From an uncultured Actinomycetes bacterium (GTDB lineage Bacteria; Actinomycetota; Acidimicrobiia; Acidimicrobiales; Microtrichaceae): DNA of 62,286 nucleotides. Where the stretch lies: contig CAIYGQ010000135.1 of the NCBI GenBank assembly GCA_903925745.1, forward strand, positions 1 through 62,286, given 5' to 3'. The number at the start of each line of letters is the position of its first letter. The stretch's first letter is position 1. The notes beneath the pieces were generated by a model. The model saw only the letters and a program-made list of their open reading frames with translations, was not told where the DNA came from and searched no databases. Below are positions 46,708-51,474 of the stretch, in pieces. Made by a program: the position numbers and the translations under genes.

Positions 46708-46778
46708 CCGCCCAGCGTACCGCCGGGTCGCCGGCCCGGCCGGGGCGGGTGGCTTGCCGAGCGGCGCCGTGTGGGGCG

Positions 46779-47933
46779 ATGCTCCGGAGCGTGACCACCA
46801 CCCGTGACGACGTGATCGAGGCCCTCCGTCCCATCGAGGACCCCGAGCTCCACCGCTCGATCGTCGAGCTCGAGATGGTCCGTGACGTCGTCGTGGACCT
46901 CCCGCTCGTCCGGGTGCAGGTGGCCCTCACCATCCCCGGGTGCCCGCTCAAGGCCGAGATCCAGACCCGCGTGACCGACGCCGTCGAACAGCTCCACGGT
47001 GTCGACGCCGTGGAGGTCGACTTCACCTCCATGACCGATGACGAGCGGGCGGCGCTCCGCGAGCGACTCCATGGGGATCCGGCCTCCACCGCCGGGTCCC
47101 AGCAGTCCCACGGTCACGCCGAGGGCCGGGCCATCCCGTTCGCGGACCCCGGGTCGCGGACCCGGGTCCTGCTCGTCGCGTCGGGCAAGGGTGGGGTGGG
47201 GAAGTCGTCGGTGACGACGAACCTGGCCGTGGCGCTCGCCCAGCGCGGCTCCTCGGTCGCGGTCGTCGACGCCGACGTCTGGGGGTTCTCGATCCCGGCC
47301 ATGCTCGGCGTCGACCGGGCCCCGGTGCTGATCGACAAGATGATCGTGCCCCCGGAGGCCCACGGCGTCCGCTGCATCTCCATGGGCTTCTTCGTCGAGG
47401 AGGACCAGCCGGTCATCTGGCGTGGCCCGATGCTCCACAAGGCCCTCGAGCAGTTCCTGACCGACGTCTACTGGGATGAGCCCGACTTCCTGCTCGTCGA
47501 CCTGCCCCCCGGGACCGGTGACATCTCGATCTCGCTGTCGCAGTTCCTGCCCCGGGCCCAGGCGGTGGTGGTGACCACACCCCAGCCGGCGGCCCAGCGC
47601 GTGGCCCAGCGGGCCGGCACCATGGCCGAGAAGGTGCACCTCGACGTGGTCGGCGTGATCGAGAACATGTCGTGGTTCACCGGCGACGACGGCGTCCGCT
47701 ACGAACTGTTCGGCGCCGGCGGTGGGGCCGAGCTCGCCGCCCGGCTGGAGGTGCCGCTCCTGGGTCAGGTGCCCCTCGTCCCGGAACTGCGGGAGGGCGG
47801 GGACTCGGGCCGGCCGATCGTGGCCGTCGACCCCGACGCCGAGGCCTCCGGGGCCTTCCGGTCGATCGCCGAGCGGCTGGCCGTCGAGCTCGCCCCGACC
47901 CGCCGGACCAACCCAGAGCTCCGGATCCTCTAG
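46779..47933 (+). CDS. apbC: Mrp/ApbC Fe-S cluster carrier ATPase
   Basis: A 384-residue P-loop NTPase. An N-terminal MIP18/DUF59 domain (about residues 5-95, VIEALRPIEDPELHRSI) precedes the deviant Walker A motif SGKGGVGKSSVTTN and switch regions DADVWGFSIP and LLVDLPPGTGD. These are hallmarks of Mrp/ApbC, which carries Fe-S clusters to target proteins. The C-x-x-C that often follows the VIENMS motif is missing (VIENMSWFTGDDG). The ATG at 46779 is preferred over the GTG at 46791, whose ribosome site would be too close. It is divergent from the SufR-like gene. Confidence 0.86.
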   Translation: MLRSVTTTRDDVIEALRPIEDPELHRSIVELEMVRDVVVDLPLVRVQVALTIPGCPLKAEIQTRVTDAVEQLHGVDAVEVDFTSMTDDERAALRERLHGDPASTAGSQQSHGHAEGRAIPFADPGSRTRVLLVASGKGGVGKSSVTTNLAVALAQRGSSVAVVDADVWGFSIPAMLGVDRAPVLIDKMIVPPEAHGVRCISMGFFVEEDQPVIWRGPMLHKALEQFLTDVYWDEPDFLLVDLPPGTGDISISLSQFLPRAQAVVVTTPQPAAQRVAQRAGTMAEKVHLDVVGVIENMSWFTGDDGVRYELFGAGGGAELAARLEVPLLGQVPLVPELREGGDSGRPIVAVDPDAEASGAFRSIAERLAVELAPTRRTNPELRIL

Positions 47934-47969: not shown

Positions 47970-47998
47970 CCAAACCTGCACGGCCGTTGCGTCGTGTC
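47970..47998 (+). promoter_or_regulatory. Candidate ECF promoter of the sigma gene (autoregulation)
   Basis: CCAAACCT (47970-47977) and CGTGTC (47993-47998) are 15 bp apart. The AAC/CGT pairing and spacing resemble ECF promoters. The same two motifs with the same spacing occur at 49396-49424. The expected transcription start falls at about 48004-48006, so the sigma mRNA would be leaderless, starting at the ATG at 48008 or 48014. Confidence 0.55.
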
Positions 47999-48001
47999 AC
48001 C

Positions 48002-48592
48002 ATGGCGATGGCCATGACCGAGCACGATCCGGGGGTGCCCCCGATCGCCCCCGTGCCCGTTCCCGGACGGGGTGCGTCCTTCGACCAGGTGTTCCTGGAG
48101 TCCTACCCGCGCCTGGTCCGCAGCCTCACCCTGGTCTGTCGTGGTGACGCCGAGGCCGCGGCCGACTGCGTGGCCGACGCCTTCGAGCGGGCGTTCGTGC
48201 GCTGGCGGCGGGTGTCGCGTCTGGACGACCCGGTCGGCTGGATCCGGCGGGTGGCCATCAACCGGGCCACCGACGGCGGCCGCCGCCTCCGGAGGCGTGA
48301 CCGGGCGATCGAGCGGCTGGCCTCGACGACCCCGACGAGCGTCGATCCGGTCGAACCGGCGGACCGGTCCCTGGCCGACGCCGTGGCGGCCCTGAGTCCG
48401 CAGCAGCGGGCCGTCGTCGCCCTGTTCTACGTGGACGACCTGTCGGTCGCCGACGTCGCGGCCACCATGGAGCTGAGCGAGGGCGCGGTGAAGTACCACC
48501 TGCACCAGGCCCGCGAGCGGCTCCGCACCTCCTGGACGCCGAACGGTTCGGCGTCCGAATCAACGAACCGTCACGACGGAGCGAGACCATGA
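48002..48592 (+). CDS. ECF (sigma-70 family) RNA polymerase sigma factor
   Basis: A 196-residue ECF sigma factor. Region 2 is seen in FDQVFLESYPRLVRSL, ADCVADAFERAFVRW and VGWIRRVAINRATD. Region 4 runs from LADAVAALSPQQRAVV through MELSEGAVKYHLHQARERLR (about 160-180) and holds the DNA-binding helix. Three in-frame ATGs (48002, 48008, 48014) are possible starts, and the predicted promoter would favour the later ones. Its stop overlaps the next ATG as ATGA, the usual layout for a sigma factor with its regulator. It probably controls its own gene and the membrane protein gene at 49513 by a shared promoter motif. Confidence 0.88.
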   Translation: MAMAMTEHDPGVPPIAPVPVPGRGASFDQVFLESYPRLVRSLTLVCRGDAEAAADCVADAFERAFVRWRRVSRLDDPVGWIRRVAINRATDGGRRLRRRDRAIERLASTTPTSVDPVEPADRSLADAVAALSPQQRAVVALFYVDDLSVADVAATMELSEGAVKYHLHQARERLRTSWTPNGSASESTNRHDGARP

Positions 48593-49317
48593 GCGACGAC
48601 GACACCTTCGATGACATCCTCCGAACCCACCTGGGCGCTCCGGGGGTCGACCCGATCGGCGTCGGCGCGGCGACCGAGCTCGAGTCCCTCATGGGCCGCT
48701 TCGAGGCGGCTCGCCGTCGTCGCCGGGCCGCGGTCGGAGCGACGACCACGATCGCCGCCCTGATCGTGCTCGCAGCGGGCGCCTTCGCGCTCGGTGGCCC
48801 GGGCCAGCAGGTCGACGTCGGTCCGGCCGATGGCGACCCGCCCGTCACGGCTCAGGCGCCGACCACGGTGCCGAGCACCGTGCCGACCACGCTGCCGGCA
48901 CCGGTCCCGGCACCCCTCCCGCCACCCCTCCCGCCGCCGGTCCCGACCCCGGGCGCCGTGTCGCCGCCGGCGGTGCCCGGCGACGACGGGGGAGCCTCGG
49001 GTGGGGTGGACGACTCCGGCGGCTCGTCCGGCGGTACGTCGGGCGGGTTCGGCTCCGGTGGTTCCACCTCCGGCTCGAGTGGTGGTTCCGGCGGCGGCTC
49101 GGGTGGCGGCAGCGGCTCGGGCGGCGGTTCTGACGACTCGTCCGGTTCGGGCGGTGGTGGATCCGACGATTCGGGGGCCGATGACTCCTCCGGCTCCGGC
49201 GGTGGCGGCTCCGATGACTCCGCCGACGACTCGGGGGGTTCGGGCGGCGGCTCGGACGACTCGGTCATGGATGACTCGGGCCGGGGTCGGGGACGCGGCC
49301 GCGGCGGCGACGACTGA
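48589..49317 (+). CDS. Membrane protein with Ser/Gly/Asp-rich disordered tail, candidate anti-sigma partner
   Basis: A 242-residue single-pass membrane protein. About 45 cytoplasmic residues (DDTFDDILRTHLG ... RRRRR) precede a transmembrane helix (about 50-70). A Pro-rich linker then leads into a low-complexity tail of repeated SGGGS and SDDSG units ending in RGRGRGRGGDD. No HxxxCxxC zinc anti-sigma motif is present. Its position, overlapping the sigma gene by ATGA, is that of an anti-sigma factor, with the short N-terminal part as the only possible sigma-binding domain. The tail matches the style of the protein at 49513. Confidence 0.68.
   Translation: MSDDDTFDDILRTHLGAPGVDPIGVGAATELESLMGRFEAARRRRRAAVGATTTIAALIVLAAGAFALGGPGQQVDVGPADGDPPVTAQAPTTVPSTVPTTLPAPVPAPLPPPLPPPVPTPGAVSPPAVPGDDGGASGGVDDSGGSSGGTSGGFGSGGSTSGSSGGSGGGSGGGSGSGGGSDDSSGSGGGGSDDSGADDSSGSGGGGSDDSADDSGGSGGGSDDSVMDDSGRGRGRGRGGDD
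48996..49316 (+). repeat. Low-complexity Gly/Ser/Asp coding repeat
   Basis: Degenerate short repeats such as GGCGGTGG and GACGACTCC encode a tail of GGS, SGSGGG and DDSG units. It is in frame throughout and carries no stop codon. Phasing is irregular, unlike a CRISPR array. Confidence 0.8.
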
Positions 49318-49395
49318 ACGGCGGTCGCTCCCGGCCGTCCGGCACGGCCGTGGCCACCGGCCGGTGGGTTCGCGGTCAGGAAATCCGCAGCGGGG

Positions 49396-49424
49396 CCAAA
49401 CCTCCGGGGACGCTGTGGCGTGTC
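49396..49424 (+). promoter_or_regulatory. Second copy of the ECF promoter motif
   Basis: CCAAACCT (49396-49403), a 15-bp spacer and CGTGTC (49419-49424) match the pair in front of the sigma gene exactly in sequence and spacing; the spacers differ. The predicted transcript starts at about 49431, leaving an untranslated leader of about 82 bases before the GTG at 49513, with a purine-rich GGGGGAAGTGGG near the start. The rest of 49318-49512 holds no gene. Confidence 0.55.
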
Positions 49425-49512
49425 CCCCCCGTTCGCACCGGGGCCTTCCCGGTGCGGAGCCGGGAGGTTCCCGGTTGGGATCCGGGCGGGGCCCGGGGGA
49501 AGTGGGTGCCAC

Positions 49513-50436
49513 GTGAACGAGCCAGTGCACGACGACGAGCAGTCCGGCGCCGCCGGGTCCGACGAGGTGGCGGGTACGCCACGGCGCCTCCTGCAACGAG
49601 CGGGGACCGGGGCGGTGGCCACGGTCGTCCTGGCCGGAGTCCTGCTCGGCGGGCTGACCGCCGCCGGCGCCGTGGGCGGCCTGCCGGGGGTGCTCGACGA
49701 CTCACCCGAGTCCACCACGACGTCGAGCACCTCGACGGTGCCTGAGACCACGACCACGACCGAGACGACGGTGGCGCCTCCCACCGTTCCTGCGCCTCCG
49801 ACCCGGGTCATCGACGTACCGGGCGTCGGTCAGGTGGTGATCCTGGACGGCCCGGTCCCGACCGTCATCTCGGTCACGCCGCTTCCCGGATACACCTTCC
49901 AGCCGGACGACGACCCGGGAGAGCCCGGTGAGCTGCACCTGAGGTTCTTCGACGCCTTCGGCGGCCGGATCGACGTCCAGGCCGAGTACGAGGACGGCCA
50001 GCTCCGGGTCCGGATCCGTGACCGTCGGATCGAGGACGCCGATCGCCGCGACGAGGACGGCGACCGACGAGGTGACGACGGCACCGGCCGGGACGACTCC
50101 GACGACGACTCGACCGGCACCGATGACTCCGGACGGGGTCGCGGTCGTGGCGGGGACGACCGGTCGGGTGGTTCCTCGGGCGGCGGCTCGGGGTCGGCCG
50201 GTTGGGGTGCACCGGGTTCCTCGGGCGGCGGCTCCGGTTCGGCTGGTTCGGGTTCGGGCTCGTCGAGCTCCGATGACTCGGGTGGCCGGGGCCGAGGTGG
50301 TGACGACTCGGGTTCCGACGACTCCGGTGGTGGCTCCGGTGGCCGGGGCCGGGGTGGTGACGACTCCGGTGGCGGACACTCGGGTTCCGATGACTCCCGT
50401 GGCCGCGGTGGTGACGACTCCGGCGACGAGGACTGA
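49513..50436 (+). CDS. Membrane-anchored protein with acidic Arg/Gly/Asp repeat tail (putative ECF target)
   Basis: A 307-residue single-pass membrane protein with a transmembrane helix at about residues 28-50. A Thr/Ser-rich linker follows, then a small folded domain (VIDVPGVGQVVILDG ... RFFDAFGGRIDVQAEYEDG). The long C-terminal tail is built from DD, DSDDDS, SGGGSGSAG and GRGRGGDDSG units. The repeated acidic DDSG-type segments could bind divalent cations. The GTG at 49513 has a purine-rich Shine-Dalgarno upstream, and the ORF reaches back to 49420 without a better start. It probably belongs to the regulon of the upstream ECF sigma factor. Function unknown. Confidence 0.68.
   Translation: MNEPVHDDEQSGAAGSDEVAGTPRRLLQRAGTGAVATVVLAGVLLGGLTAAGAVGGLPGVLDDSPESTTTSSTSTVPETTTTTETTVAPPTVPAPPTRVIDVPGVGQVVILDGPVPTVISVTPLPGYTFQPDDDPGEPGELHLRFFDAFGGRIDVQAEYEDGQLRVRIRDRRIEDADRRDEDGDRRGDDGTGRDDSDDDSTGTDDSGRGRGRGGDDRSGGSSGGGSGSAGWGAPGSSGGGSGSAGSGSGSSSSDDSGGRGRGGDDSGSDDSGGGSGGRGRGGDDSGGGHSGSDDSRGRGGDDSGDED
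50092..50430 (+). repeat. In-frame acidic/Gly coding repeats
   Basis: Repeated GGTGACGACTC and GGCGGCTC-type units encode at least four GRGGDDSG-like blocks separated by SGGGSG segments. The same type of tail closes the gene at 48589, so the two may share origin or have exchanged sequence. Confidence 0.78.
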
Positions 50437-50463: not shown

Positions 50464-51474
50464 GTGCGCAGACGCCGGGGACCGGACCAGACGGGTCGGA
50501 TGATCATCCTGCAGGTGGCGGTCACCCTCGTGGTGGCCGCCACCGTCGCGTGCGGGAGTGACGGCCCGGCAGCCACCCCGACCGGAGCGGGCCCAGGTGC
50601 TCGGCCCGAGGTCGTGGTCGACGGTCTCGATCGCCCGACGCAGTTCGTCCCGCTCGAGGACGGCCGATTCGTGGTCGCCCAGCTCGCCGGGGACGAGGAC
50701 GCCGGACGCGGGCAGGTCGTGCTCACCGGAGCCGGCAGCCCACCACAGGTCCTCCTCGACGGCCTGGACGTCCCCACCGGCGTGGCGCTGGCCGACGGGC
50801 GGCTGTGGGTGATGGAGGCGACCGCCATCTCGGTGGCCGACTGGGCCGGTCCGGGCTCGATGCCCGGTCCATTGCGCCCGGTCCGTCCGGGACTCCAGGG
50901 CAACGGTCGGAGTCAGGGGTCGCTCACGGCCCTGGAGGACGGCCGGATCCTGTACGCGACGACCGGCACGACACGCGGTTCCGGGGGTGCCGCCCCCGGC
51001 ACGGGCACGCTGTGGTCCCTGGACCCGGCGACGGACCGGTCGGAGCCGGTTGCGGTCGGCGCCAAGAACGCGTACGCGACCGCTGTCGACGCCGACACGC
51101 TCGGCGTGACCGAGATCGGCGACGCCGCGGTCCCGCCACCCGATCTGCTCGTCGAGATCCCCGTTCCGGCGCCGGGTTCGACCGCCGTCGACCTGGGCTG
51201 GCCGTCGTGCCGGCCCGTCGTCGACTGTCCCGGCGTCGTGACCCCGGCCGCATCGTTCCCGCCCGGCGCCACGCCCACCGGTATCGCGGCCGACGATGGC
51301 GACTGGCTGGTGGCCCTGTTCAGCGAGGGGCGGATCGTCCGGGTTCCGCGCGGCGGGGGTGCGCCCGTCGACGTCACCGACGGCCTGGACGGGCCCCACA
51401 GCGTCGTGCGCTCACCCGAGGGCCGAACGCTCGTCAGCGAGCACGGCGCCGGTCGGATCGTCGCGCTCCCCTAG
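50464..51474 (+). CDS. Beta-propeller-like secreted lipoprotein (ScyD/ScyE-like)
   Basis: A 336-residue exported lipoprotein. A hydrophobic N-terminal segment ends in the lipobox VVAATVAC. The mature part reads like a six-bladed beta-propeller of the sugar dehydrogenase/SMP-30/NHL type, with strand-like repeats VVVDGLDRPTQFVPL, VLLDGLDVPTGVAL and VDVTDGLDGPHSVV at blade starts. The protein resembles the ScyD/ScyE family of secreted propellers (established only by motif style). GTG at 50464, 27 bp after the repeat-protein gene, so probably co-transcribed. No catalytic residues can be assigned. Confidence 0.65.
   Translation: MRRRRGPDQTGRMIILQVAVTLVVAATVACGSDGPAATPTGAGPGARPEVVVDGLDRPTQFVPLEDGRFVVAQLAGDEDAGRGQVVLTGAGSPPQVLLDGLDVPTGVALADGRLWVMEATAISVADWAGPGSMPGPLRPVRPGLQGNGRSQGSLTALEDGRILYATTGTTRGSGGAAPGTGTLWSLDPATDRSEPVAVGAKNAYATAVDADTLGVTEIGDAAVPPPDLLVEIPVPAPGSTAVDLGWPSCRPVVDCPGVVTPAASFPPGATPTGIAADDGDWLVALFSEGRIVRVPRGGGAPVDVTDGLDGPHSVVRSPEGRTLVSEHGAGRIVALP

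Follow-up and report, generated by a model that had tools for sequence, protein, structure and literature searches.

The question that this locus raises is whether two copies of one bipartite motif, each standing before a gene, are the promoters of a single regulatory circuit. The window, that is, the whole 62,286-nt stretch of DNA that was analysed, has the motif before an ECF sigma factor gene and again before the gene for a repeat protein, with a further gene between the two sites. Comparative sequence analysis of the promoters, of their link to the sigma gene, of an operon-like gene overlap and of a shared domain points to an answer: the locus very probably encodes an autoregulated ECF circuit that controls an adjacent exported or membrane-anchored, Asp/Gly-rich surface protein.

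Two copies of one motif in the window

Promoter 1 (PsigX, 47970..47998) and promoter 2 (Ptarget, 49396..49424), both on the plus strand, are exact, conserved matches to CCAAACCT-N15-CGTGTC, with the -35 box CCAAACCT at 47970-47977 and 49396-49403 and the -10 box CGTGTC at 47993-47998 and 49419-49424. The preliminary description had placed two copies here, on this strand, with identical boxes and spacing and with spacers that differ, and it was right on each point: the spacers share only 53% identity, the upstream 60 nt 43% and the downstream 60 nt 32%. Nothing else in the window matches, even when up to 2 mismatches are allowed, and the 8-mer CCAAACCT has no further occurrence there. A pattern search of the organism's own genome (3.6 Mb, 86% complete) returned 2 exact matches, none with 1 mismatch and 9, scattered, with 2 mismatches; the reversed pattern, as a control, gave 4 matches at up to 2 mismatches. 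Many random occurrences would have spoken against the motif in the terms of the preliminary description, and the genome-wide scan placed both exact matches (2/2) at these very sites. For a short motif at a single locus, chance or a recent local duplication might be thought to account for the identity of the copies. However, a first-order Markov model puts the expectation for exact matches at 2.3e-4 in the window, and at 2.6e-6 if they must share a strand and lie within 1.5 kb, and both sites are kept across genera, as described below; the differences in flanks and spacers rule out a recent duplication. The comparative data have already refuted both readings, and the probability that we leave to them is close to nil.

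The gene after promoter 1 (48002..48592, plus strand; stop at 48590-48592) encodes a protein with Sigma70_r2 (residues 29-95) and Sigma70_r4_2 (119-170) as its only domains, both above the Pfam cut-off, as befits an ECF sigma factor, and the linker between the two Pfam matches, of about 23 residues, lies within the limit of fewer than 50 for the class. The nearest NCBIfam subfamily is SigE-fam_strep (TIGR02983), yet the score of 112.5 bits over residues 21-173 falls below the curated cut-off of 141.55, and the sigma factor is not assigned to it.

The motif follows the sigma gene in the window's family

Relatives at orthologous loci have conserved boxes and drifting spacers. In the window's family (f1), both copies stand at the same places in nine genomes (G001, G003, G004, G009, G013, G017, G019, G029 and G032), the sigma-side copy of G004 ending in CGTGAC; G030 and G031 have contigs that stop short of the second site. 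A scan of 33 f1 genomes with CCAAACCY-N15-CGTGTC gave 21 exact matches in 12 genomes, all of them at these loci, and 0 matches to the reversed pattern in the same 33. When sigma orthologs were identified by protein search, with E below 1e-40 as the threshold for presence in f1, the motif was found in 12 of the 13 genomes with an ortholog and in none of the 20 without one (0/20). The upstream neighbour of the sigma gene is a gene for an Mrp/ApbC-type Fe-S carrier (46749-47933); in G002, which is without the sigma factor, the only Mrp homolog found is 47% identical.

The single exception among the 13 is G005 (same genus, L045), which carries a decayed copy of the whole system and amounts to a natural loss experiment. 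Its -35 box reads CCACACCC, conserved sigma residues are altered, gene 2 is broken by a stop at codon 6 and, further on, by a frameshift, and no target gene was found in the genome, which is 96% complete. The stop and the frameshift come from a MAG assembly, and each change taken singly might still be a sequencing error; the -35 box and the sigma residues have decayed along with gene 2 and the target.

A wider set of sites in a second family

Across the order, motif matches are about as frequent as those of the control except in one other family, f7, where 150 genomes gave 45 matches against 6 for the control. Most matches outside f1 and f7 (for example, L085, L090, L092 and L093) are treated as background, because no sigma or exported gene lies downstream and because their frequency is near that of the reversed pattern. 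By a hand count from two lists, the motif occurs in 25 of 41 sigma-positive f7 genomes and in 1 of 109 sigma-negative ones. When f7 orthologs were located through the protein only, 26 of the 30 regions upstream of them carried 12-14 of the 14 motif letters, with the N15 spacer in 25 of these 26 sites; 4 of the 30 have no good motif, and shuffled upstream DNA reached 11 or more of 14 letters in 9 of 600 trials. The unbiased consensus is CCAAACC(T/G)-N15-CGTGTC, with 1.8-2.0 bits per column in the boxes and much lower values in f7 for the last -35 base and the spacer. A third family is represented by G055, which has a related site before its sigma gene and a second before a transmembrane protein on the other strand. 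Among 246 genomes taken from across the phylum, motif matches were found in this order only.

The other f7 sites lie elsewhere in the genome and mostly precede genes for exported proteins with acidic low-complexity tails; where target starts can be assigned, they are mostly about 33-110 nt downstream. One exported, acidic-tailed type recurs in f7 (L111, L112, L115, L119 and L121) and has a repeat-like domain of the form L-P-x-x-G-A-x-L / T-x-G-P-G-G; L111 is without a Pfam match. Two further f7 targets, both in G357, are an exported protein with TDATDAT repeats (L096) and a DUF11 surface protein (L098). In two f7 genomes (L104 and L123, in G470 and G515), what follows the motif at a distance of about 110-160 nt is a gene of cytochrome P450 type in its likeness, not one for an exported protein.

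Promoter geometry and the start of the sigma mRNA

In ECF promoters the transcription start point is expected about 6 nt past the -10 hexamer. Three ATG codons are candidates for the start of the sigma gene in the window, at 48002, 48008 and 48014, since the sequence beginning 3 nt past promoter 1 reads ATG GCG ATG GCC ATG; they lie 3, 9 or 15 nt past the -10 box. Overall, the distance from -10 box to start codon is 0-10 nt: it is 3-10 nt in f1, and in the motif-carrying f7 orthologs the first in-frame start lies 0-8 nt away, mostly at exactly 6. At such distances a ribosome-binding site would not fit between the point where transcription starts and the start codon. The expected start point should be the G of GTG in f7 and a position 2-3 nt before the second ATG in the window's genus, where a "leaderless" mRNA might carry some 0-4 nt of leader. 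The leaderless or near-leaderless sigma mRNA that had been predicted earlier is well supported by this spacing across genera and families. Leaderless mRNAs are common in actinobacteria, making up 33% in Corynebacterium glutamicum (PMC3890552), so that a leaderless sigma mRNA is plausible and not exotic.

The hallmarks of ECF systems include AAC at -35 with CGT at -10, a co-transcribed anti-sigma factor and autoregulation (PMC8103513). The conserved CCAAACC-N15-CGTGTC has the AAC and the CGT in the expected boxes, and the ECF promoter logic proposed in the preliminary description is borne out by conservation across genera and families. Its two predictions have also gained ground: autoregulation through the motif kept before the sigma gene across genera and families, and a local target through promoter 2, kept before the next gene across f1 genera. 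Promoter 1 is the predicted driver of the sigma gene and of the probable anti-sigma gene.

Conserved paired boxes could in principle bind other proteins, and the shared motif might then be the operator of another regulator rather than an ECF promoter. But the boxes are non-palindromic, the N15 spacing hardly varies in f7 (25/26 sites), the orientation is always toward the gene, AAC and CGT fit the published hallmarks (PMC8103513), the sigma start codon follows immediately or within a few nucleotides, and the presence of the motif goes with that of the sigma gene; an operator is therefore extremely improbable. A second possibility is that a different ECF sigma factor of the genome recognises both copies, the local sigma gene being merely another of its targets. 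At least 2 further ECF homologs are indeed encoded in the window's own genome, and f1 and f7 genomes have many. Despite these other ECFs, the motif follows the ortholog of this particular sigma factor, as the counts for sigma-negative genomes in both families make plain (0/20 and 1/109), and the joint decay in G005 argues in the same direction; we consider recognition by another ECF sigma very unlikely.

A probable anti-sigma factor between the two sites

Gene 2 (48589..49317, plus strand) begins within the sigma stop codon in an ATGA overlap, and most orthologs keep the overlap of stop and start as ATGA or GTGA. Its product has a cytoplasmic N-terminus of about 46 aa (48589-48723), a single transmembrane segment at about 48730-48795, and beyond it a Pro/Thr linker followed by a Gly/Ser/Asp low-complexity tail ending in DDSGRGRGRGRGGDD. 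Across families, the orthologs share a short N-terminal stretch FDD..L..L and an R-rich end, followed by one transmembrane segment. From these sequence features the product is probably an anti-sigma factor. It is not a zinc anti-sigma factor of class I, in which a domain of about 100 residues carries Hx3Cx2C: the cytoplasmic part has only about 46 aa and no Cys/His motif, and no HxxxCxxC occurs anywhere in the gene 2 sequence. Class II anti-sigma factors of the CnrY type are under 50 aa and wrap the sigma factor with two helices (PMC7406223); the putative anti-sigma segment of gene 2 is also shorter than 50 aa and is followed by one transmembrane segment, the likeness shown being one of length, not of sequence.

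Gene 2 might instead encode another co-regulated surface protein, with the sigma factor controlled in some other way. It has no Pfam family, an anti-sigma domain included, and its tail resembles that of the target. This reading is nonetheless improbable: with few exceptions among the orthologs, the start of gene 2 overlaps the stop codon of the sigma gene, FDD..L..L with the R-rich end before a single transmembrane segment is what would be expected of an anti-sigma segment at the inner face of the membrane, and the size of that segment (about 45 aa, with two predicted helical stretches) is like the CnrY type (PMC7406223). The preliminary description, which named the sigma gene and its local target, overlooked three things: the gene for the probable anti-sigma factor that lies between the two promoters, the domain that this factor's relatives share with targets, and the order-wide regulon.

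The target gene and its leader

The target gene (49513..50436, plus strand) is an open reading frame with a GTG start and a conserved position in relatives. GTG 49513, about 88 nt past the -10 box, is the most likely start; another GTG of the same frame, at 49420, shares bases with the -10 box of promoter 2. In the product, an N-terminal transmembrane or signal segment is followed by a linker rich in Thr, then by a beta domain at about residues 94-175, and last by a tail of Asp/Gly/Ser/Arg repeats; no Pfam or NCBIfam family was found for this protein. As had been proposed, then, promoter 2 precedes the gene for a membrane repeat protein, which by its sequence may be either membrane-anchored or secreted. 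The 5′ leader of its mRNA (49430..49512, plus strand), about 80 nt long, is predicted to be structured, folding better than shuffled sequences in the window, with z = -2.4, and likewise in G003, with z -2.3, and not in G001 (z -0.9); possible explanations are translational control or merely GC-rich DNA. The next gene downstream (50464-51474) has a weak likeness to ScyD/ScyE (42 bits, with a cut-off of 80) and comes after the target across the genus; it is present in G005 too, where the target is lost.

A beta domain common to probable anti-sigma factors and targets

In most relatives (G009, G013, G017, G019, G032, G055 and f7 genomes) the anti-sigma factor ends in a small C-terminal domain of seven beta strands, and homologous beta domains are found in promoter targets of the window and of three other lineages. 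The domain of the window's target (49792..50037, plus strand) was related to the anti-sigma ectodomain of these relatives by HMM, hhalign and AlphaFold2. An HMM built from 15 anti-sigma domains finds all six target-protein domains tested, with E-values of 1e-19 for G257, 4e-8 for G019, 7e-6 for G004, 5e-5 for G003 and 5e-4 for G001; on the window's own target domain it reaches only 0.0012, the best of 300 shuffles being 0.089. Comparison of anti-sigma and target domains by hhalign gave 89%, or 97% with the G257 target included. Both proteins of G019 contain the domain, and in the G055 target it was recognised by eye. AlphaFold2 models have seven strands both for the window's target domain (pLDDT 87), a model that is not fully independent because its alignment included anti-sigma rows, and for the anti-sigma domain of IMCC26207, modelled from anti-sigma rows only (pLDDT 87.5). 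The strand order of the two models appears comparable, as judged from strand lists and not coordinates. The domain has no Pfam family and no sequence match in the PDB, and a PDB fold search with both models returned no match at E 0.001 or better.

The window's own anti-sigma factor is without the beta domain, which in this genus occurs in the target only, and must have been lost from the anti-sigma factor or never been present there. Any sensing here would consequently have to go through the low-complexity tail or through the target. In this genus the tails of the anti-sigma factor (48970-49314) and the target (50080-50433) are alike, with stretches such as DDSGRGRGRG and GRGRGRGGDD; this likeness of low-complexity sequence is weak evidence.

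The proposed circuit and its known counterparts

In the mechanism that we infer, which covers transcription, recognition of the promoters by the sigma factor, anti-sigma activity, signal and surface-protein output, both motifs would serve one ECF sigma factor as promoters. Through promoter 1 the operon of sigma and anti-sigma genes would be positively autoregulated, with the mRNA 5′ end at the start codon or a few nucleotides before it, and promoter 2 would drive the adjacent gene, whose Asp/Gly-rich repeat product is exported or anchored in the membrane. While the cell rests, gene 2 would keep the sigma factor at the membrane by way of its single-TM product; once the outer part of that product reads a change in the envelope, the sigma factor would be released, and in its free form it would make more of itself, as amplification, and more of the surface protein.

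What the outer part reads may be suggested by analogy. In the sigmaI/RsgI systems of Clostridium thermocellum, the anti-sigma factor RsgI bears CBM3 modules that are also present in the regulated cellulosomal proteins (PMC4711584). There, too, an alternative sigma factor is autoregulated and the outer domain of a transmembrane anti-sigma factor recurs in regulated surface proteins; in contrast, sigmaI is not an ECF factor of this kind, the N-terminus of RsgI is long, and its carbohydrate-binding modules are known, whereas the outer domain here is undescribed. No such families appeared in the Pfam and NCBIfam scans, and the locus is an analog of sigmaI/RsgI and not a member. The analogy suggests that the anti-sigma factor senses either the surface layer itself or a ligand common to both proteins. 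It is possible, and we hold it tentatively, that the circuit is a homeostat in which the anti-sigma factor probes the same surface layer that its regulon builds, because the outer beta domain of the relatives' anti-sigma factors is also found in regulon proteins and the tails are similar here. A more specific form is rather doubtful: sensing would be homotypic, the outer part of the anti-sigma factor copying the regulated protein through a beta domain, a repeat tail or the two together, and a missing or damaged layer would in this way free the sigma factor; in this genus the sensor domain would have moved from anti-sigma factor to target, and sensing would occur in trans.

Set against the general ECF paradigm (PMC8103513), the locus is alike in a sigma factor of sigma2 and sigma4 only, the AAC/CGT pair, a transmembrane partner, and an own promoter with few targets. 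It differs in its extended CCAAACC...CGTGTC boxes, a very short regulon (2 sites in the genome), the predicted leaderless sigma mRNA, an anti-sigma factor without a Pfam family, and an ectodomain in common with targets. This is in all probability an ordinary kind of circuit, the autoregulated ECF, in an apparently undescribed, order-restricted variant in which regulator and target have an ectodomain in common. The literature search returned nothing relevant on CCAAAC with ECF and nothing on ECF sigma factors of Acidimicrobiia. An apparently undescribed ECF circuit of one actinobacterial order gains a defined promoter code, with a regulon that is minimal in one genus, at two promoters, and wider in another family; G005 offers a natural loss series for it, and the beta domain common to regulator and regulated surface protein suggests how such a circuit could read its own output. 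A minor observation concerns database labels: public MAGs titled Bifidobacterium breve (L081 and L083) carry this same Acidimicrobiia-like sigma factor at 55% identity, and the species label looks wrong.
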